NCBI GenBank assembly: GCA_949284155.1
Contig: CASDVD010000075.1
Coordinates: 1 to 33,635, forward strand
Direction of reading: 5' to 3'
DNA from: an uncultured bacterium
GTDB lineage: Bacteria; Cyanobacteriota; Vampirovibrionia; Gastranaerophilales; Gastranaerophilaceae
DNA: 33,635 nucleotides
The notes below the pieces were generated by a model. The model was not told where the DNA came from, searched no databases, and saw only the letters and a program-made list of their open reading frames with translations. Positions 9,529-32,875 of this stretch are shown one piece after another. A program made the translations under genes and the position numbers. How positions within the stretch are numbered: position 1 is the stretch's first letter; every line of letters begins with the position of its first letter.

Positions 9529-11502
9529 TTAATTTTTGTCCTTTTTAGGGAAGAATTTTATTACAGCAGCAATGCCAACCAAAATACCGGCAAAAACAAA
9601 TGCCGCTTTTGTTTTTGTATTGCCTGCCGTTATTGGTTTCCCTTTTCCTTTCAGATTGGCTGCAGCGTCTTGTGCCGGTTCTTTTTCATTTAGTATATTT
9701 TTGTATTTCACAATTTTTGAATAAAGTTCAGGATTTGCTTCATTCAATCCTTTTGCGACAAAAACCTTTTCTAAAGCATCCATTATGTTCAGACCAAATC
9801 CCTCATTAACAGCTGCCATATACGCCTGTTGAAAATTTGCCGGGATTTTATATCTGTAAGCAACATTAGTACTAAATGTCTGCTGGTCAAATCTTTCAGA
9901 CCGGCCAAAGACATCCATGTAAAAAAAGTAATTATTTTTTGCGCTCATTATTTCGGCAAATTTTGCTTTAGCAAATTGAACAGGTTCTTTCAATATTCCT
10001 TTTTTGATATGCAAGATATCGGAAAGAGGTTGTATTTGCTCAAATTTATGAAATTCAGCGACGGTTTTTCCGTTGCGTTTTACATTGTCCGCAGCACAAT
10101 TCGCTATTTGACGCAGAGGCTGAGGGTCATGATTTCCGACACCTATAATAAATCTGTCCGGATTCCACTTTAACTCTTTGGTAAATGCATGATTAGATCC
10201 CCAGCCTTCATGCATATATGTTGTACCGAGTACTTTTGTTCTTTTTTCAACACATTCTCTGAGCTTGTTATCCTTAAACAGCGCAAAATCAGACGGGTCA
10301 GCCTCAAACTCATGGCTCAACAACCCTGTATCAAAATCGTTGCCTTTAACCTCTTTAACGTAATTGTCAATTAAATCTAAAATTTTTCCGCCAAATTCCG
10401 GCTTCATAACATGCCTGCCGTCACGTGAAATAAGTTTCGGCTGCACATAATTCCAAGATGCATCGAACCTCAATGTATCATAGCGTTTTGCAAAAAATTG
10501 AACTTTCTCCTTCAGAACTTTAGAAATTTCACTATTCGGATCAGTTAATTTCTCAAAATCCGGAGCAATAAACTGCCAGCTGACTGAGCCCATGAAGTAA
10601 TTTCTGTTAAACGCCTTTGGATGGCGCCATATCAAATCCGGCGAAAATTTTAGCGGACAATCGCCGACAAGTTTTAAACCTTTTTTATTCAGCATCTTGC
10701 GTGCTTTTTGAAGATGTTCATCCGCCAAAAACTGTTTAAACTTGTGAAAATCGGCAAATTCCTTGCTTTCATTTTTAAGCTTTTGCAGCCGTTCAGCTTT
10801 GCCGGGCGGATTAAAATCGGGATTGTATAAATTTCTGTCCAGTTCATCCGGCCATTTTTCATAGTTTCTGTCATTGTGAAGCTCGGCCAAATAATCATAA
10901 AGCGCTTTATCTTCAAGTCTTTCTTTGTTTTCAGCCACATACTTTTTATAGCGCAATTTAACGGGATTTTCCTCCGTCAGCCTTTTGAAACGCTCATGGG
11001 CCTTTTTTAACGCCCTCTCATTGGGACTGTTAGAATCAACTACATTTTCATAATTTACCAGCTTATCATTCAAAGAGCCCGAATTATAACGAACAACACT
11101 GTCAAATTCATCTTTTTTAAGAATTGCTGCATATTCAGGTGTAGTTAGAAGATATGTATTTATAACATGATTTCCCAAAGCGGTAGAATCACCGCCATAG
11201 GCTATATAAGTCCCCTTAACCCCGTACGTCTGATTTTGAGGAAGAACTTTCACTTCATTAATCCCCAGATATGTCTTCATCATGTCGAAGAATTTCATAG
11301 ATTCTTCAGATGTAAGATTACCGACACCGGTATTTTTTTCAGGAGACTGCGGAAGACATGCATCATGCACTATCAATATGGAACGCCCTGTTTGACCCGC
11401 AAGCTTTTTAGCCTCATCCCTGACCGAGGTAAATTCCTTAATTTCCTCATTTTGAAGAGACCTGCCAAAATTTATACCGCTTTGGATATTTCTAACTTTC
11501 AT
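9529..11502 (-). CDS. Divergent GH77 (MalQ-like) 4-alpha-glucanotransferase with C-terminal membrane tail
   Basis: A 657-aa protein. The core resembles glycoside hydrolase family 77 amylomaltase: a segment FHKFKQFLADEHL, then GLKLVGDCPLKFSPDLIW (about 275-292), matching the family IGDxPIFV..DSADVW region. RYDTLRFDASW keeps the nucleophile aspartate (D347). LLSHEFEAD keeps an acid/base glutamate candidate (E398), and GVGNHDPQP keeps the transition-state HD (H458, D459). MalQ rearranges alpha-1,4-glucans. Two features are unusual: an MKVRNIQSGINFGRS leader shared with other genes here, and a C-terminal hydrophobic helix (about 633-651) ending PKKDKN, suggesting a tail anchor. I chose the ATG at 11502 (GAGAG 9 nt upstream) over the GTG at 11508. 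Activity is unproven because the motifs are divergent. Confidence 0.78.
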   Translation of the reverse strand: MKVRNIQSGINFGRSLQNEEIKEFTSVRDEAKKLAGQTGRSILIVHDACLPQSPEKNTGVGNLTSEESMKFFDMMKTYLGINEVKVLPQNQTYGVKGTYIAYGGDSTALGNHVINTYLLTTPEYAAILKKDEFDSVVRYNSGSLNDKLVNYENVVDSNSPNERALKKAHERFKRLTEENPVKLRYKKYVAENKERLEDKALYDYLAELHNDRNYEKWPDELDRNLYNPDFNPPGKAERLQKLKNESKEFADFHKFKQFLADEHLQKARKMLNKKGLKLVGDCPLKFSPDLIWRHPKAFNRNYFMGSVSWQFIAPDFEKLTDPNSEISKVLKEKVQFFAKRYDTLRFDASWNYVQPKLISRDGRHVMKPEFGGKILDLIDNYVKEVKGNDFDTGLLSHEFEADPSDFALFKDNKLRECVEKRTKVLGTTYMHEGWGSNHAFTKELKWNPDRFIIGVGNHDPQPLRQIANCAADNVKRNGKTVAEFHKFEQIQPLSDILHIKKGILKEPVQFAKAKFAEIMSAKNNYFFYMDVFGRSERFDQQTFSTNVAYRYKIPANFQQAYMAAVNEGFGLNIMDALEKVFVAKGLNEANPELYSKIVKYKNILNEKEPAQDAAANLKGKGKPITAGNTKTKAAFVFAGILVGIAAVIKFFPKKDKN

Positions 11503-14089: not shown

Positions 14090-14419
14090 TTAAATAATTA
14101 TATCTATATTTTCACCTAAATCTTTTTTAATTTTATCCAATACTGTCTGCACATTTTCCGGATTATCAGAAAAAGCAGAATTAAGTTCATCTGTTGCACT
14201 TTTTAATTTGGGATACTTACCTGTTATTTTCTCACCGATAATTTGCGCATGATACTTAAATCCTCTATTGCCGACTATCGGCTTTTCACAAAAGGTATTC
14301 AGCACCTTCTTTATTCCGTTCATTCCGCCGGAATATAGCACTTTTTGAGTAGTAACACCTAAAACATCTAATGTATTCAGTTGAGCACTGAACGATGGTG
14401 AATAACTTCTAGTTTTCAT
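14090..14419 (-). CDS. Small protein with PSFSA leader, coupled to the deiminase-like gene, 109 aa
   Basis: Not recognised. The start MKTRSYSPSFSAQLN carries a leader of the PSFKG kind seen in several genes here. The rest is soluble and helical (LKSATDELNSAF, then VQTVLDKIKKDLGENIDIII). I chose the ATG at 14419 because it overlaps the stop of the upstream gene as ATGA, a classic translational-coupling arrangement; an earlier in-frame start at 14458 lies inside that gene. Coupling suggests that it acts with the deiminase-fold protein, perhaps as a partner; that is inference. It is convergent with rfbA, 3 bp away. Confidence 0.7.
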   Translation of the reverse strand: MKTRSYSPSFSAQLNTLDVLGVTTQKVLYSGGMNGIKKVLNTFCEKPIVGNRGFKYHAQIIGEKITGKYPKLKSATDELNSAFSDNPENVQTVLDKIKKDLGENIDIII

Positions 14420-15747
14420 TTTATTTTCACTTTCGTTGGAATTTCCGCACACATACAATGAATACCGCCCTGAAATTCAGGCAAAAATTCTTTAGCTATC
14501 GCATCATTTTCACCCGATACAAAGTAGACTTTTTCCTCTTTTACATAAGGTTTTATACTTTCAAGAAATTTTTTCTTCATGCTGAAGCCGATTTTTTTCT
14601 CAATTTCATCGGTAATAAATAATCCTTTATCAAATAAAGAATTATTAGTAATATAAACTAATTCATCATTATTATTTTTGAAAACTACAGCATTTAAATA
14701 ATTATGAAGCTGCTTGAGAAAAAAATCCTTCTGCCTTCCGGGAGAATGGTTTTCATATATTTCATAAATCCTTCCCGGAACTCTTATAGTTTCAAAACCG
14801 GCCTCATTCAAAACTTTCTCAACTTCAGGCGCTTTCGGATACGGGTTAAGCGACATAATTTTTTGTATTTGTTTCATGCCCATACCCAAAGCCATAAAAA
14901 CTTTTTGATATTTCAAAGAGTCTATGCTCGATTGAATTTTATACATTTTTTCACAAACTTTATCAAAGCCTTCGGATAATGCTGATACAGTAAGTTCATC
15001 ATCGGCAACAAGCACACGTTTTTTATCCAAAGGACGAATGAACATGTCGAGGTGATAATCCGCCTGAGGAATCACATGTACTTTATCAACCTCAAACATC
15101 TTTTTTATTTTATCTATGCTGAATTTTTTCAGCTCATCTTCCCCTATCAGAAGTTCATCTTTCGCCTTTTCAGTTTGCACAAGAAAAAAATTTCCGCCCG
15201 GTATATGAGTCCGGCGTCTTAATTTTTCAAGAATTCCAGAGTACTCTTTAATATCTTTATCTATTAGATTTTTTTGAATTAATTTCCGCTCTTGTGTAAG
15301 CTCATTAACACCGTATACAAATTCAACATTTCCTAATTTGCACTTTGGAAGATTAACCATAAAAGACAAAAAATTTTGCAAATCTTCTATATTAGTCCCG
15401 CTTCTTACATCTTGCTGAGTTTTATCAAAATTAAGATTAAAAAACTTTTTTACAACTTCCGTTTCTCCAAATTCCTCAAAACATTGAAGTTTATTTTTGA
15501 CAACAGTCCAAAAATCCTGCGCCCAGCACCCTTTTAATATAGGCTGCTCACCGACACTGTTTTTGCTTATTGTAATACCGGCTTCATTCCTGTTCAAAAT
15601 ATACAGGGGCAAATTTTCTTTTTTTGTTATTTCAAGCATTTCTCCGGCTATACCGCAATAATTTGAATTCATTAGAATCCCTCCGAGTTTGCGTGCATCA
15701 TAGCCTTTGAATGAAGGTTTTGCTAAATTAAATGAATCTACTCTCAT
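14416..15747 (-). CDS. Deiminase/amidinotransferase-fold enzyme (agmatine-deiminase/PAD-like) with PSFKG leader
   Basis: A 443-aa protein whose motifs fit the guanidino-modifying enzyme fold. GCWAQDFW (D78) resembles the WARD substrate motif, and IPGGNFFLV (184-186) the conserved GGN. YHLDMF (H232, D234) resembles the catalytic HxDM, and GGIHCM near the C-terminus (C431) resembles the GGIHC nucleophile loop of agmatine deiminase. All three catalytic residue types are present, so activity on arginine, agmatine or a peptidyl arginine is possible. Sequence similarity outside the motifs is low and the substrate is unknown. The N-terminus MRVDSFNLAKPSFKG is the shared leader, not a signal peptide. 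AGAG lies 5 nt before the ATG. It overlaps the next gene by 4 nt. Confidence 0.75.
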   Translation of the reverse strand: MRVDSFNLAKPSFKGYDARKLGGILMNSNYCGIAGEMLEITKKENLPLYILNRNEAGITISKNSVGEQPILKGCWAQDFWTVVKNKLQCFEEFGETEVVKKFFNLNFDKTQQDVRSGTNIEDLQNFLSFMVNLPKCKLGNVEFVYGVNELTQERKLIQKNLIDKDIKEYSGILEKLRRRTHIPGGNFFLVQTEKAKDELLIGEDELKKFSIDKIKKMFEVDKVHVIPQADYHLDMFIRPLDKKRVLVADDELTVSALSEGFDKVCEKMYKIQSSIDSLKYQKVFMALGMGMKQIQKIMSLNPYPKAPEVEKVLNEAGFETIRVPGRIYEIYENHSPGRQKDFFLKQLHNYLNAVVFKNNNDELVYITNNSLFDKGLFITDEIEKKIGFSMKKKFLESIKPYVKEEKVYFVSGENDAIAKEFLPEFQGGIHCMCAEIPTKVKIK

Positions 15748-24092: not shown

Positions 24093-24863
24093 ATGAATAA
24101 AAAGTTTGCCATTAATAACTTTATAGGGATTTTATTTGTATTTTTTATAATATTTATTACAGCCGGCGGAGCGGAGGCAGCAGTAGCATTCCCGACAATA
24201 ACAGTGGGAATGGGAGACGCAAACACACCGCAGGAATTTACGCAGGGTGTACAAATACTTGTTTTGCTCACGATATTAACTCTGGCACCGAGTATTTTTA
24301 TCATGACAACAGCCTTTATCCGGATAATAATTGTTCTGGCGCTAACCCGTCAGGCAATAGGTATGGCATCTTTACCGCCGAATCAGGTTCTGGCGGGTCT
24401 GGCTTTAATATTAACATTTTTCGTAATGGCACCCACTTTCAACAAAATTAACGAAACAGCCATACAGCCTTATATGAACAACCAGATTACCCAGCAGGCA
24501 GCGCTGGAACGTGGTATTAAGCCAATGAGAGAATTCATGATAAAACACACGGAAGAGAAGGAGCTGGGATTATTTTTGAGTATGGCCAAAATTGAAAAGC
24601 CAAAAAATTGGGAAGATGTACCGACTTATACATTGATTCCGGCATTTGTTATTACAGAATTGAAAACGGCTTTTAAAATAGGTTTCATCATATTCCTTCC
24701 CTTTCTGGTAATCGATATCGTTGTAGCAAGTATTCTTGTATCAATGGGTATGCTTTTCTTGCCTCCGGCAACGGTTGCAACACCGTTCAAACTTATCCTT
24801 TTTGTAATGATTGACGGATGGTATCTGATTACCAAAACATTGCTTGAAGGTTTCATAACATAA
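24093..24863 (+). CDS. fliP: Flagellar type III export protein FliP
   Basis: FliP is the core of the export gate in the inner membrane. It forms a pentamer with FliQ and FliR that moves flagellar subunits. The 256-aa protein begins with a cleavable N-terminal hydrophobic leader (about residues 8-27, ending GGAEAA), typical of FliP. The conserved segments follow: LTLAPSIFIMTTAFIRIIIVL, ALTRQAIGMASLPPNQVL, YTLIPAFVITELKTAFKIGF, then FLPFLVIDIVVASILVSMGM. AGGA lies about 7 nt before the ATG. It heads a tight operon with fliQ, fliR and flhB. Confidence 0.96.
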   Translation: MNKKFAINNFIGILFVFFIIFITAGGAEAAVAFPTITVGMGDANTPQEFTQGVQILVLLTILTLAPSIFIMTTAFIRIIIVLALTRQAIGMASLPPNQVLAGLALILTFFVMAPTFNKINETAIQPYMNNQITQQAALERGIKPMREFMIKHTEEKELGLFLSMAKIEKPKNWEDVPTYTLIPAFVITELKTAFKIGFIIFLPFLVIDIVVASILVSMGMLFLPPATVATPFKLILFVMIDGWYLITKTLLEGFIT

Positions 24864-24893
24864 TAATTAAAAAATTTAAGGAAAATAAAATAA

Positions 24894-25163
24894 ATGGAAG
24901 ATACACAGTTTTTAACAATAATACAAAATGTTTTTATATTAACACTATTAATGGCCACACCTATACTGGTTATCAGCATGATAGTAGGTCTTGTAATAAG
25001 CATATTTCAGGCCGTTACACAAATTCAGGAAGCAACATTGACTTTCGTTCCCAAAATTCTCATAGGAATACTGACTCTCATAGTGCTTATGCCCTGGATG
25101 CTGAGTACTTTTATCAGCAGAACCAATGAATTATTCGGCTATATAGAAACAATAATTCATTAG
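24894..25163 (+). CDS. fliQ: Flagellar export protein FliQ
   Basis: An 89-aa protein with two membrane helices, as expected for FliQ, an inner-membrane subunit of the export gate. TPILVISMIVGLVISIFQA and TQIQEATLTFVPKI are the characteristic family segments. AAGGAAAA precedes the ATG. It lies 30 bp after fliP and 11 bp before fliR. Confidence 0.95.
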   Translation: MEDTQFLTIIQNVFILTLLMATPILVISMIVGLVISIFQAVTQIQEATLTFVPKILIGILTLIVLMPWMLSTFISRTNELFGYIETIIH

Positions 25164-25174
25164 GCGGAGGTTTG

Positions 25175-25960
25175 ATGCAGCCTGATTTATTAATGCTATT
25201 ATCACCTAAAAATATTGTCATTTTCGCAATAATATTTACACGTATCAGCGGAATGATTATGTCTGCACCTTTGTTTTCAACTTTTCCGATACCGATACAG
25301 GTAAAAATCTGGCTCACGGCGCTGGTATCTTTCATTTTATTCCCGATAATATCGTCAACACTGCCTTTTTCCGTACCTGCCTCATTTCCGGAGTTGAGCA
25401 TATATTTGCTTCGTGAATTCGGTGTGGGATTTATGATAGGATTCATTGCAAATCTTATATTTGCAGCTGTTCAAATAGGCGGAGAATTCATAAGTATTCA
25501 AATAGGTATTTCAATGAGCCAGATATTAAACCCTGAAACCGGACTCAGCACGCCGGTGCTTGCACAGATATATATAATTTTTGTTGCCTTTGTTTTTATG
25601 GCCTTAAATGCTCACCAGTGGCTTTTTGCAGCAGTATACAGGAGCTTTAAGACATTCCCTCCGGGATTGGATTTTGTTTTTACCGGTTCAGTTGTTGAAC
25701 ATATAGTAAGACTTTCCGGAGAAATGTTCGCTATTGCCATAAGTATGATTTTACCTATTTTCTGTGTTATGTTTGTTGCTGAGGTATTAATGGGCTTTAT
25801 GTCAAAAATGATGCCTCAGATGAATATATTCATGGTGGCAATACCGCTCAAAGTCTATCTGGGTTTGATTCTTATGTTAATGTTTATTTCACCGACAGCG
25901 ACTTATCTGGCGAACACGATTGAATCCTACCTGAAAGGTATTGTAGAAATGATGATATGA
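25175..25960 (+). CDS. fliR: Flagellar export protein FliR
   Basis: A 261-aa, five- to six-helix inner-membrane subunit of the flagellar export gate. Typical segments are IFTRISGMIMSAPLFST, the LREFGVGFMIGFIANLIFAAV stretch (a fraction of the FliR family core) and GLSTPVLAQIYIIFVAFVF. I chose the ATG at 25175, which has GGAGG 4 nt upstream; the in-frame TTG at 25172 overlaps the ribosome-site spacing. The stop lies 7 bp before flhB, so the two are probably coupled. Confidence 0.94.
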   Translation: MQPDLLMLLSPKNIVIFAIIFTRISGMIMSAPLFSTFPIPIQVKIWLTALVSFILFPIISSTLPFSVPASFPELSIYLLREFGVGFMIGFIANLIFAAVQIGGEFISIQIGISMSQILNPETGLSTPVLAQIYIIFVAFVFMALNAHQWLFAAVYRSFKTFPPGLDFVFTGSVVEHIVRLSGEMFAIAISMILPIFCVMFVAEVLMGFMSKMMPQMNIFMVAIPLKVYLGLILMLMFISPTATYLANTIESYLKGIVEMMI

Positions 25961-25967
25961 GGAAAGA

Positions 25968-27059
25968 ATGAGCGCAGCGGAAAGGACAGAAGAAGCCACC
26001 CCCAAGCGGCGGGAGGATGAGCGTAAAAAAGGTAATATAGCAAGAAGTCAGGATATGACCTCTTCTCTTTCTATCAGCGCAGCAGTCGGACTGCTGATTA
26101 TGCTTTCTTCTTTAATTTTGCACAAAATCAAATCACTGATGGAATATGCTTTCACGCATATTCATCCTGAGGAAATTGAGATAAATGATGTCATTGCACT
26201 ATTCAGTCCATATGCAAAAGCATCTGGAGAAATTTTGCTGCCGTTTCTTTTAGGGTTGATGATTATTACGGCAATTGCCGTACGTGTTCAGGTGGGGCCG
26301 CTTTTTGCACTTGAAAAAATCAGACCCAAAATGGATAGATTCACAATGGGCCAGATTATGCAAAGTTTGAAAAGGATGTTTAACCCGTTTGAGCCTAAAA
26401 ACCTCGTCGAAATAGCAAAATCTCTGGCGAAAATGGCCATTGTAGGGTACAGCGGATATTCAGTTTTGCAGTCAAGAAAAGATGAACTGTACGGACTGGT
26501 CGGTGTTGATATAAATACAGCCCTCGCTGTTTTAGGCAGCATTTTGCTAAATATGACAATCAATATGTGTGTAGCTATGCTTATTCTGGGTTTTATTGAC
26601 AAAAAATACCAGAATTACGAATACGAAAAATCAATAAAAATGACCAAACAAGAGGTCAAAGACGAATATAAAAATATTGAAGGGGATCCGACCGTTAAAG
26701 CAAAAATCCGCTCTGTCCAGATGCAATTTATGAAACAAAAAATGATGAGTGCAGTTCCTCAGGCTGATGTTGTGGTCGCAAACCCTACACACTTTTCGGT
26801 TGCAATAAAATACGATAAAACTAAGGCGCCTGCACCGATTGTAGTCGCAAAAGGCGTAGATTACATGGCCTTTAAAATAAGAGAAATCGCCAAAGCAAAT
26901 GATGTACCTATAGTTGTTAACAAACCTCTTGCGAGAGCATTATATAAACTGGTCAAAGTAGATCAGGCAATTCCTGCGGAATTGTACGTTGCAGTTGCTG
27001 AAATACTTGCATTTGTTTACAAAAAGGATAAACATCTGCATTCTTCAATTAAAGTGTAG
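25968..27059 (+). CDS. flhB: Flagellar export switch protein FlhB
   Basis: FlhB switches the export substrate from rod/hook to filament proteins. The 363-aa length is standard. The N-terminus SAAERTEEATPKRREDERKKG is the family start, four membrane helices follow, and the cytoplasmic tail holds the self-cleavage motif NPTH (N272, in VANPTHFSVAIKYD). The intact motif and normal tail (PIVVNKPLARALYK) indicate a working switch. GAGG lies 7 nt before the ATG. flhA is not adjacent: the next gene is typA after 68 bp. Confidence 0.96.
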   Translation: MSAAERTEEATPKRREDERKKGNIARSQDMTSSLSISAAVGLLIMLSSLILHKIKSLMEYAFTHIHPEEIEINDVIALFSPYAKASGEILLPFLLGLMIITAIAVRVQVGPLFALEKIRPKMDRFTMGQIMQSLKRMFNPFEPKNLVEIAKSLAKMAIVGYSGYSVLQSRKDELYGLVGVDINTALAVLGSILLNMTINMCVAMLILGFIDKKYQNYEYEKSIKMTKQEVKDEYKNIEGDPTVKAKIRSVQMQFMKQKMMSAVPQADVVVANPTHFSVAIKYDKTKAPAPIVVAKGVDYMAFKIREIAKANDVPIVVNKPLARALYKLVKVDQAIPAELYVAVAEILAFVYKKDKHLHSSIKV

Positions 27060-28948: not shown

Positions 28949-30631
28949 CTAATTCAATGTTCCCAAAAAAGATGAAAAAGTCTTATTCATTGTAGAGTTA
29001 GGAATTTCCATTGAATCAAGATGCTGAACAGATTGCGCAATCTGTTTGTCCCCTCCGGCAGTCTTTTCTGCTCTGCTTTTTTCAACGCTTCTTGTTATTG
29101 CAATATTAAGTTTTGGAATACCGACACCCAGAACAACACCTGAATATACATATCCCAGAGCTTGTGCAATATTTTTATATTTTATTCGTTTGCTGACAGA
29201 GTTGAAAGCCTCTTGCAATTTTTTGTCCGAACCTGCGGATTTAACTTTATTAGCCAGAGCCTCCATCAGTTTTCCGTAAGAAAGTTTTTTACCGTTAGAA
29301 TCCAAAACATCAATGCCTGCTTCTTTCAATACAGGATAAAGAATTTCTTCATGAGACTTAACTTCTGCTTTTGTAATCCAGTTCCAGCCTTTTTTCAGCC
29401 CTTTAAGATTTTGTGCATTATATGTTTTTTCATCATAATTAATTAAAGACTTGTCCATTTTATTGGCAGCAAGCTTAGAAACAAAGCCGCCCAATATAAG
29501 CCAGTTTACAAAACCGAGAGTATCTTTTATTGTGCTTTCACGTAATTCATCTTTATTCCGTGCAGCAACCATACGGCTGAAAATTGTCGTTGCATATATC
29601 AGTTTAAATTGAGGAATAGTAGGAACCATACCTTTATATTGAAGTTTTGGCAAAAATTTCTCTTTTTCAAAAGGTGCAATGGTTCTCATCATGGCAGCGG
29701 CTATACCAGCTCCCATGGCAGTTTTCAACGCTTTAAACCCGAATGATTTATCGGGTTTTGCATCTTCATTACCGACAAAGCCCTCTTTACCTGTACGTTT
29801 TTTTGTCATATATGCATTTAACGGCTGCAAACTCATTCCGACAGCCATCGGAACCGCAAGCCCGCCCAGAGCGGTAGTAGTTTTCAACCTTTTAAGCACT
29901 TTAACAAACTCTGCATCAGTAAGTTTTGAAACATTAGCCTTGTCCAGAAACGCTTTTTTCAGTGAAAATGCGTCATTCAGTATACTTTCTAAGCTTCCTT
30001 CAACAGAATAAGCCCCGTTTGTCAGTTTTAAGTTTTCTGTTGCACCAATATCCGCAGCAATTTTGAATTTTGCTTCGTTGTATATTTTTGAAGGAATTTT
30101 ATATTTATCGGTATTTGCAGAAGAAAGAAGTTTGCTGACTTCTTCTATCGTTGATTCGCTCAGCTTTTTATACGGATTTGCTTTATCAACAGGATTATAG
30201 CCCTGAAGCTCTTTTAAAACACTTCTGTAATAATCATCAGAAGCGGCATTTTGTTCTATAAACTTTGAAAATACATCTATAGAATCATTATTGTTAAACA
30301 GCAAATGAGCTTTAACACCATTTGCTTTATTAAAAGCATGAGAAATAAGATAACCTGCGCCTAATCCCACTAAACCTGCAAATGAATGGTTTAATGTAGA
30401 GCTGAATTCTCTTGCTGCAGTTTCTACACCGGCATCAGGATTTCTTGCCGTGTCAACCACTGTCCTTGGCGTATCCATAAAAGCAACATCGACAAATACC
30501 GCTCCCAGTGCAGGATTAGTATTTAAGAAATTAAAAGCGGTTGAAAGAATTTCTGCTCCGCCTCTAAAGCTTTGTTTATGATTTTGAACTTTTCCTTTTT
30601 GTTGAATATTTGGATGTATTGCTGTTATCAT
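28949..30631 (-). CDS. Multi-TM lineage-specific protein, paralogue A, 560 aa
   Basis: Not recognised. The leader MITAIHPNIQQKGK, then QSFRGG (residues 20-25), precedes a conserved segment with PRTVVD (55-60). Later come a GKEG segment (YMTKKRTGKEG), the stretch SRMVAARNKDELRESTIKD and a C-terminal membrane-like segment (VLGVGIPKLN). At least four hydrophobic stretches are likely (about 85-100, 255-275, 305-325 and 500-520). The upstream neighbour shares the same motifs in the same order, so these are tandem paralogues. AAGGCG precedes the ATG. It lies 14 bp downstream of paralogue B and is probably co-transcribed. Confidence 0.75.
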   Translation of the reverse strand: MITAIHPNIQQKGKVQNHKQSFRGGAEILSTAFNFLNTNPALGAVFVDVAFMDTPRTVVDTARNPDAGVETAAREFSSTLNHSFAGLVGLGAGYLISHAFNKANGVKAHLLFNNNDSIDVFSKFIEQNAASDDYYRSVLKELQGYNPVDKANPYKKLSESTIEEVSKLLSSANTDKYKIPSKIYNEAKFKIAADIGATENLKLTNGAYSVEGSLESILNDAFSLKKAFLDKANVSKLTDAEFVKVLKRLKTTTALGGLAVPMAVGMSLQPLNAYMTKKRTGKEGFVGNEDAKPDKSFGFKALKTAMGAGIAAAMMRTIAPFEKEKFLPKLQYKGMVPTIPQFKLIYATTIFSRMVAARNKDELRESTIKDTLGFVNWLILGGFVSKLAANKMDKSLINYDEKTYNAQNLKGLKKGWNWITKAEVKSHEEILYPVLKEAGIDVLDSNGKKLSYGKLMEALANKVKSAGSDKKLQEAFNSVSKRIKYKNIAQALGYVYSGVVLGVGIPKLNIAITRSVEKSRAEKTAGGDKQIAQSVQHLDSMEIPNSTMNKTFSSFLGTLN

Positions 30632-30645
30632 TGTTTCGCCTTATT

Positions 30646-32205
30646 TTATATAGTCTGTTTACTTAAATTGCCTTCAGCTTCCGTAAAATTTGTTCCGAAA
30701 GCCTGGAATGCTTTTTGGGCATATACACTGTGGGGGAAAATTGTAGGATATGAATGATATCTGTTTATCGTCATTTCAAGCTCTTTTTTTCGTTTTGATT
30801 CAGTCTGCTTTCTGACATACCATGGAACAAGAATACCCAAAAGCAGCATTGAAAAGCCTAACGAACTAATTTCACACAGTGAACGGAGATTTTTAGCCTT
30901 TTTAGAAATCTGTCCTGCTTCGTCAAATGATTTCAGGTTCGTTTCTCTGGCCCAATATTTGAATCTGTCTATAATATTATTTGATTTTGGCTTATCAGAA
31001 AGATAATTGAATAAATCTGTTTTATCTTTGCTGAATTTTTTGATTAAAGAACCAACGCCCTTATTAACATAATCACCGAAGAAATACAAACTGCAAAAAG
31101 TTGCTATATCACGGAATGTAGCTTCTCTGAGCTCATTTTCATCTTCTGAAGCAAGCATTCTGCTTGCAAAAGTAGAAGTAGCTATCCAGCGGCACTGATC
31201 CATCGACGGCAGAATCTTGTTAAACTGCAAAGACGCAAGGCTCGGCTTTTCTTTTAAAGAAAGCAGCGCTACACCAACCATCAACGCAGCGGCACCAAGC
31301 TTTTGCATCCAAAAGCCCGCTTTTTCTTTTTGCGTCATTTCCTTTTTTGTATTTTGCCGAATGAAATCTTTATAAATCGGTGCGCCCTCTTTGCCCGAAG
31401 ATTTACGGGTAATCCAGCGATTTATGGACTGAACTGAAGCAGCCAGCGGTATTATTATTGCTAAACCGGTTAAACTCTTTTTGTTCGCAAATTTCACTGC
31501 CTTTTCATAAAAAGACTTTAATTTCTCAGAGTCCATTTCCTTAAAAAGTTTTCCGCAATCAACCGTATCTCTGAGGAAAGTTCTAAAATCTATATTAAAA
31601 GGCTTTTCAGAACCATGAAATCTAATATGTTCCGCACCTTTTGTATTTTCTATAAAAAGTTCATAAACTTTTTTCAGTTCTTTTTTGTCTTTTTTTCCGT
31701 GTATAATTTCTTTGACAAGCTCTCTTGAGTCATGGACATGCTGTTCGTTCACATCAACGTCTATCCATTTTTTGCCGACATTAATCTGCATATCCTTAAA
31801 TATGCCGTCAACATACTTATCAACATTATTCACCTTTGAATAACGGGTATGAAGTTCTTTCAGGCTGTACTCATTAGCCCATAAATTTGATAATCCTTTA
31901 TAATCTTTATTAAATAATTCAAAAACTTTTGCCGCACCCAAAACAAAAAATCCGGGAATCAAACAGTTCACAACAAGTCCTGATGACTCTCTTCTGAAAG
32001 TTTCAGCAGCAGCAAAACCGTTCGTTTTTGCATCAACAACGGTTCTCGGTATGATAGCTGTTGCAGCATCTATAACTGAAACACCCACCATCGGATATGT
32101 GTTACATTGCTGCAGAACCCATGTTGCAGCATCCAAAGGCCCTGCCTTAAATGATGGTGTGATTTTATTATTCAGATTTGTATTAATGCTAACTTTATCA
32201 ATCAT
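30646..32205 (-). CDS. Multi-TM lineage-specific protein, paralogue B, 519 aa
   Basis: Not recognised. After the leader (PSFKA at 17-21), the protein has PRTVVD (53-58), INRWITRKSSGKEG, and SRMLASEDENELREATFRD, in the same order and spacing as paralogue A. Hydrophobic stretches lie near 80-97, 245-260, 300-320 and a C-terminal segment LLLGILVPWYV. Sequence identity outside the motifs is low, so the duplication is old. No good ribosome site precedes the ATG at 32205. The shared motifs suggest a common fold and probably hetero-oligomer formation with A, but no function can be assigned. Confidence 0.75.
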   Translation of the reverse strand: MIDKVSINTNLNNKITPSFKAGPLDAATWVLQQCNTYPMVGVSVIDAATAIIPRTVVDAKTNGFAAAETFRRESSGLVVNCLIPGFFVLGAAKVFELFNKDYKGLSNLWANEYSLKELHTRYSKVNNVDKYVDGIFKDMQINVGKKWIDVDVNEQHVHDSRELVKEIIHGKKDKKELKKVYELFIENTKGAEHIRFHGSEKPFNIDFRTFLRDTVDCGKLFKEMDSEKLKSFYEKAVKFANKKSLTGLAIIIPLAASVQSINRWITRKSSGKEGAPIYKDFIRQNTKKEMTQKEKAGFWMQKLGAAALMVGVALLSLKEKPSLASLQFNKILPSMDQCRWIATSTFASRMLASEDENELREATFRDIATFCSLYFFGDYVNKGVGSLIKKFSKDKTDLFNYLSDKPKSNNIIDRFKYWARETNLKSFDEAGQISKKAKNLRSLCEISSLGFSMLLLGILVPWYVRKQTESKRKKELEMTINRYHSYPTIFPHSVYAQKAFQAFGTNFTEAEGNLSKQTI

Positions 32206-32553: not shown

Positions 32554-32814
32554 ATGTCAGAAAACAATATCCTGAAACAACCATTTGGCATGAACATAAA
32601 AATGCCGACACGCACCATTCAGCAAGGTAAAGAAACGGTTGAAAAACATGTTGGCGGTGTTTTTGAGCCTCTTTTCAGCTTTATTGAAGATAATCAGCCG
32701 GTATTTAACGGTTCCATTGCAGAAGAAATTGAAAAATATAATTTGATGACATACAACACCGGTGCAATGTTAAGAAACGCGCAGGCTCAAATAACATTTG
32801 ACATAAAAGGTTAA
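32554..32814 (+). CDS. Small hypothetical protein, 86 aa
   Basis: Not recognised. A soluble, slightly acidic protein with no signal peptide or membrane segment. It begins MSENNILKQPFGMNIKMPTR and ends MLRNAQAQITFDIKG. GGAGC lies 5 nt before the ATG, and a strong terminator follows 34 bp downstream, so it is a genuine single-gene unit. Its long upstream region suggests independent regulation. Confidence 0.72.
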   Translation: MSENNILKQPFGMNIKMPTRTIQQGKETVEKHVGGVFEPLFSFIEDNQPVFNGSIAEEIEKYNLMTYNTGAMLRNAQAQITFDIKG

Positions 32815-32848: not shown

Positions 32849-32875
32849 AACGAAACGCAAGTTTCGTTTTTTTTT
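32849..32875 (+). terminator. Rho-independent terminator after the 86-aa gene
   Basis: An 8-bp stem AACGAAAC/GTTTCGTT (32849-32856 with 32861-32868) is closed by the stable tetraloop GCAA (GNRA type) and followed by a run of Ts to 32875. Confidence 0.88.

Follow-up and report, generated by a model that had tools for sequence, protein, structure and literature searches.

S1 and S2, a two-branched family of unit-built, putatively membrane-embedded proteins from the class Vampirovibrionia

We report a family of predicted membrane proteins with two related branches, S1 and S2, whose building block is a unit of about 220-500 aa; depending on the lineage, the units are genes of their own or are joined N-to-C by fusion. 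The family appears, from profile searches, to be confined to the class Vampirovibrionia (Melainabacteria). The units fall into four kinds (S1N, S1C, S2N and S2C), and we see roughly even chances that these homologous units form a heteromeric complex in the inner membrane. The window analysed here, i.e. the whole stretch of 33,635 nucleotides, belongs to a draft genome of 1.79 Mb and carries two members of the S1 branch, genes A and B (Table 1).

Genes A and B lie on the minus strand, separated by 14 bp, and are transcribed in the order B to A. Their products align by BLASTP with 26% identity over 368 columns (E=1e-21), a value far beyond chance, by which they are true paralogues; the first-pass annotation had rightly read them as tandem duplicates. 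Each of the motifs it listed is found in both proteins, in the same order and where it had placed them, among them PRTVVD (residues 55-60 in A and 53-58 in B) and GKEG (residues 281-284 and 271-274), whereas two further conserved elements were missing from its list, namely the E-T..RE that closely follows PRT and the tail motif K[TA]F..F, in which K, F and F are invariant in 16 aligned members. Its supposition of strict motif retention is upheld across 78 order-level S1 members, in all of which the leader F, P55, E70, N272, L501 and G502 (numbering of A) are conserved, while R56 (97%), R74 (95%), E75 (97%), R353 (99%), E362 (99%) and D370 (99%) are nearly so. The PRTVVD...ETAARE loop of A would lie around the junction of two helices predicted at residues 40-63 and 65-104.

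Table 1. Positions of the S1 genes, their units and motifs, and other features in the window
Feature	Coordinates	Strand	Basis or remark
Gene A (S1, second of pair)	28949..30631	-	ATG start; 560 aa, two-unit protein
Gene B (S1, first of pair)	30646..32205	-	ATG start; 519 aa, two-unit protein
A N-unit (about residues 15-290)	29762..30589	-	hhalign of unit profiles
A C-unit (about residues 291-530)	29042..29761	-	hhalign of unit profiles
A leader SFRG (residues 21-24)	30560..30571	-	F invariant in 78/78 order-level members
B leader SFKAG (residues 18-22)	32140..32154	-	motif reading, conservation
A PRTVVD...ETAARE charged loop, N-unit (residues 55-75)	30407..30469	-	conservation
B PRTVVD...ETFRRE charged loop, N-unit (residues 53-73)	31987..32049	-	motif, conservation, model
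A QPLNAYMTKKRTGKEG (residues 269-284), after third hydrophobic segment of N-unit	29780..29827	-	motif, conservation, unit alignment
B QSINRWITRKSSGKEG (residues 259-274)	31384..31431	-	motif, conservation
A SRMVAARNKDELRESTIKD, charged loop of C-unit (residues 352-370)	29522..29578	-	motif, conservation
B SRMLASEDENELREATFRD, charged loop of C-unit (residues 348-366)	31108..31164	-	motif, conservation
A LGVGIP, third hydrophobic segment of C-unit (residues 501-506)	29114..29131	-	conservation, hydropathy
B LGILVP (residues 456-461)	30823..30840	-	conservation, hydropathy
A C-terminal tail motif KTFSSFL (residues 550-556)	28964..28984	-	alignment, 16 members
B C-terminal tail motif KAFQAFG (residues 498-504)	30694..30714	-	alignment
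GH77-like protein	9529..11502	-	Pfam 4-alpha-glucanotransferase, E 8e-21; leader INFGR; C-terminal hydrophobic segment
443-aa protein	14416..15747	-	leader PSFKGYDARKL
FliP, then putative FliR- and FlhB-like genes	24093..27059	+	FliP by Pfam
86-aa gene	32554..32814	+	divergent from B
Terminator-like hairpin	32849..32868		downstream of 86-aa gene

Although A and B had thus been correctly paired, the whole protein proved not to be the basic element of the family: this is half a protein, and a second branch exists besides S1. The N- and C-terminal halves of A and B correspond in two co-linear blocks, and profile-profile comparison relates S1N to S1C at 1.7e-4, which is modest for N-C homology inside S1 alone, S1N to S2C at 7e-7 and S2N to S2C at 5e-6, as against 1.4e-18 for S1N with S2N and 1.1e-19 for S1C with S2C (reversed controls gave 0.0027 or worse). 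Judged by these profiles, A and B are each an internal repeat of two homologous units. Separate genes encode the S1 N- and C-units at five loci of relatives (L063, L103-L105 and L235); in distant families, a gene of about 467-494 aa corresponds chiefly to the N-terminal region of the S1 profile and one of 232-289 aa to its C-terminal region. By the S1 profile, the distant 490+283 aa pairs are N- and C-halves, and the alternative that they are counterparts of A and B was discarded.

Behind the F-x-G leader that heads most units, each unit has two hydrophobic segments forming a hairpin with the charged R...E..RE loop between them, then a mostly helical domain, a third hydrophobic segment and a basic tail. 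S1 and S2 share both defining marks of the unit, namely the R...E..RE loop between the first two hydrophobic segments and the match to a unit profile. By averaged hydropathy, S1N, S1C, S2N and S2C each have three hydrophobic segments, whether the member is near or distant; fused S1 has an extra hydrophobic segment before the hairpin of the C-unit, and the first segment of that hairpin falls below the plotted cut-off.

The S2 branch was found by profile search and is related to S1 unit by unit. On contig C24 of the genome that carries the window it consists of two overlapping genes coding for an N-unit of 316 aa and a C-unit of 329 aa, and many relatives and genera have it as a single fused gene (about 650 aa). 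In one relative (G044, contig C198; L235 6413-10264), S2N, S2C, S1N and S1C are four consecutive single-unit genes overlapping by 1-4 bp, and in three distant ones (L063, L104 and L105) the S1N-S1C and S2N-S2C pairs form a divergent cluster; most Gastranaerophilales carry S1 and S2 at separate places in the genome. Across 59 genomes, counted with weak cross-matches between S1 and S2 excluded, 45 have both branches, 6 only S1, 3 only S2 and 5 neither, an association with a Fisher P of 0.004, uncorrected for ancestry. Some genomes thus lack both S1 and S2, and the system is therefore dispensable.

The overlapping genes and the N-C fusions are our main argument for one complex; the separate loci of S1 and S2 in most Gastranaerophilales and the genomes with only one of the two branches count against it. 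We posit that the four unit kinds may assemble into a single pseudo-symmetric heteromeric inner-membrane complex, in which N and C units would sit side by side, thereby accounting for their fusion; the F-x-G peptide might dock between the subunits or to a shared partner. In Gastranaerophilales, duplication of fused S1 gave rise to B and A. The hetero-oligomeric membrane assembly that the first-pass annotation had suggested gains indirect support from the four overlapping single-unit genes of the relative. The family, its repeat, its split and fused arrangements, the four-gene operon and the conservation of the motifs are demonstrated, whereas the membrane location, the physical complex and the part played by the leader are what we infer.

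The strongest rival, which we rate as rather unlikely, is that two homologous halves make up a channel or secondary transporter, as in families whose half-size proteins pair and later gave rise to fused versions; each S1 or S2 pair would then be complete in itself, with A, B and S2 acting independently on different substrates. This reading is favored by the homology of the halves and their occurrence both as single genes and in fusions, by conserved charged residues beside hydrophobic segments, and by a further S1 paralogue clade that, in three genomes, precedes a DtxR-like metal regulator by 21-57 bp. Nevertheless, no match to a transporter family or a solved transporter was obtained, the hydrophobic segments are sparse and weak and are set apart by a large helical domain, and the adjacency of S1 and S2 in one operon favors one joint system. 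The third paralogue clade (L054 6839-8920, L087 6360-8507 and L099 5749-7885) is on the same strand as the regulator, whose L054 copy matches the iron-dependent repressor in Pfam; we treat this neighbor of one paralogue clade as a lead only.

Because the hydrophobic segments are weak, with averaged hydropathies of 1.0-2.1, membrane insertion is a prediction. It is conceivable, if improbable, that the proteins are instead soluble or peripheral helical scaffolds in which these segments are core helices, as might be suggested by their weak hydrophobicity, especially in A (single-sequence maximum 1.42), and by the long continuous helices of the predicted models. Against this, S1N, S1C, S2N and S2C all have the segments at corresponding positions, and the third reaches an averaged hydropathy of up to 2.1 and leads into a basic stretch. 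For A and B, the AlphaFold models are themselves weak (mean pLDDT 65 and 67), and at that confidence display the same order of helices and strands, rather than the lack of a common fold that would have told against the first-pass reading; Foldseek searches with these models, which are too weak for the result to be trusted, returned nothing significant (best E-values of 0.12 and 0.64).

The F of the leader is present in 81 of the 83 N-units, with G, S, N or A at +2 in 80 of these 81, and is invariant in the 78 order-level S1 proteins despite the variable tail that surrounds it. Fused S2 retains the leader internally, where its C-unit begins (F in 17/17, G at +2 in 15/17), while C-units overall are less strict (F in 26/31 S2C units). 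The leader, which the first-pass annotation had counted among the shared motifs, is accordingly conserved in the family without being special to it, being found also on unrelated proteins of the lineage and conserved among their orthologues. In genome G077, it is enriched at true starts (38/1047) over pseudo-starts at internal methionines (54/5149; P=2e-8); a first, cruder enrichment test, made before these internal-Met controls were used, had been unconvincing.

Several such proteins can be named. The window codes for a GH77-like protein whose closer homologues in relatives have similar SFGR-type leaders and whose more distant GH77 homologues do not, and for a 443-aa protein most of whose homologues in other genera have F-x-G just before the domain. 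In G077 (L066-L145), some 26 proteins combine a polar tail with a start-proximal motif of the F-x-[GAN] type, and none of the ten of these that were scanned scored above the Pfam cut-off. An internal SFKG is also found in a paralogue of the family itself, a 612-aa protein encoded on contig C56 of the window's own genome (L065 7001-8839), where it opens the S1/S2-like part that lies behind a DUF1893 (TM1506) domain.

One might take the leader as a mark for export by a dedicated system of the lineage, with A and B being inserted in another membrane, a reading consistent with its presence on the GH77-like, 443-aa and other unrelated proteins and its enrichment at true starts in G077. We regard this as quite improbable: in fused S2 and the 612-aa paralogue the motif is internal and cannot be an N-terminal signal there, and S1 and S2 have no constant neighbor genes, export genes included. 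The internal leader of fused S2 thus makes a signal confined to the N-terminus unlikely, and a purely N-terminal export signal was rejected for both of these internal occurrences. Our own reading is that the leader may be a docking peptide. A profile search of genome G020 recovered neither S1 nor S2, and this genome keeps the leader on a GH77-like protein; hence the leader does not require S1/S2, and these cannot be its sole receptor. A broader and unlikely extension would be that F-x-G is a Vampirovibrionia-wide docking code that heads unrelated domains and addresses a common receptor, S1 and S2 being its most conserved users and forming a membrane machine of a new kind by which the leader-bearing proteins would be organised there.

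The first-pass annotation knew no name for this family, and none emerged from the five libraries searched. NCBIfam and PHROGs, queried with A and B only, gave no match above threshold (best PHROGs E 0.12, not significant), nor did Pfam, PADLOC-DB or PDB sequences queried with A, B, the S1 members and profile, S2 and the single units; the sub-threshold matches are isolated, with none repeating among members. When 35 S1 members were scanned individually, no Pfam family was matched by more than one of them, and S2 and the single units had nothing at the Pfam cut-off except the separate DUF1893 domain of the C56 paralogue. No match was found by tblastn in 50,697 phage records, no S1 member was confirmed on viral contigs, and the anti-phage defence profiles of PADLOC-DB gave nothing significant. 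A known transporter, phage or defence family was therefore rejected for want of a match in these libraries, and the match to a transporter or phage family that would have told against novelty did not appear. In the literature searched, no title or abstract pointed to a description of such a family. The novelty we propose is at the level of the protein family, and a solved structure could still reveal a known fold.

With A as a single BLAST query, S1 was detected in 51 of 59 relatives from the order Gastranaerophilales, often as an adjacent pair. Profile search of 244 genomes of the phylum found S1 in 106, a few of them with weak matches; all 106 belong to the family or at least the order of the window's genome, and none of the genomes sampled outside the class has it. 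Two further families of the class have S1 as split halves; their weak matches rise to about 1e-38 or better (longer gene) with iterated profiles, which unite 83 full-length or long S1 members with the split halves from the distant families. In a tree of 78 members, A and B fall into separate groups (38 rows, SH-aLRT 100, and 26 rows, SH-aLRT 97, respectively) beside other paralogue clades. Both the A and the B clade contain members from the same three families (f1, f6 and f7), whence the duplication precedes the split of at least these three, bearing out its presumed old age.

The genes around S1 and S2 differ between genera and offer no consistent hint at a function; no constant neighbor was found in the survey of relatives, and a conserved operon partner was rejected. 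The 86-aa gene divergent from B is 94% identical in the nearest relative; it was dismissed as a partner, as it adjoins S1 only in one subclade and occurs in genomes without S1. In four distant relatives (L063, L064, L104 and L105), a diadenylate cyclase gene (DAC/CdaA; L063 10145-11119, Pfam match on this copy) lies tail-to-tail with S1C. Elsewhere in the window, the gene for FliP and the putative FliR- and FlhB-like genes that follow it would make up an export cluster of flagellar type, directly ahead of TypA.

Animal guts commonly harbor non-photosynthetic relatives of Cyanobacteria, of which, to our knowledge, almost none has been cultured. Being near-universal among the order members studied, absent outside the class among sampled genomes and without a match in any library searched, the putative membrane system offers a good handle on what sets Melainabacteria apart. 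Because split as well as fused versions occur naturally, and because one relative has a compact four-gene operon, it can be tested in E. coli.

Two known systems invite comparison. The PRAT signature of Tim17/22/23 reads [GA]-x2-[FY]-x10-R-x3-D-x6-[GAS]-G-x3-G, and the R-x3-D of A followed by x6-[AGS] resembles part of it. Nevertheless, A reads F46-x9-R56-x3-D60-x6-A67-G68, so that R comes one residue too early; neither A nor B has the final G-x3-G, and in B the [GAS]-G is replaced by A-A. Neither protein thus carries the signature, and Pfam gave no Tim17/22/23 match. The second is the SWEET/SemiSWEET system, comprising half-size and fused two-half membrane proteins. Pfam finds no MtN3/saliva domain in S1, S2 or the single units, and S1/S2 differ from these proteins in having no sequence match to them, a domain of at least 100 residues between segments 2 and 3, and, in fused S2, no extra segment. 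The likeness, offered as an analogy, would be one of plan: the S1/S2 unit likewise has three hydrophobic segments and occurs either as a free half or in a fused two-half protein, and fused S1 has an extra hydrophobic segment between its halves.
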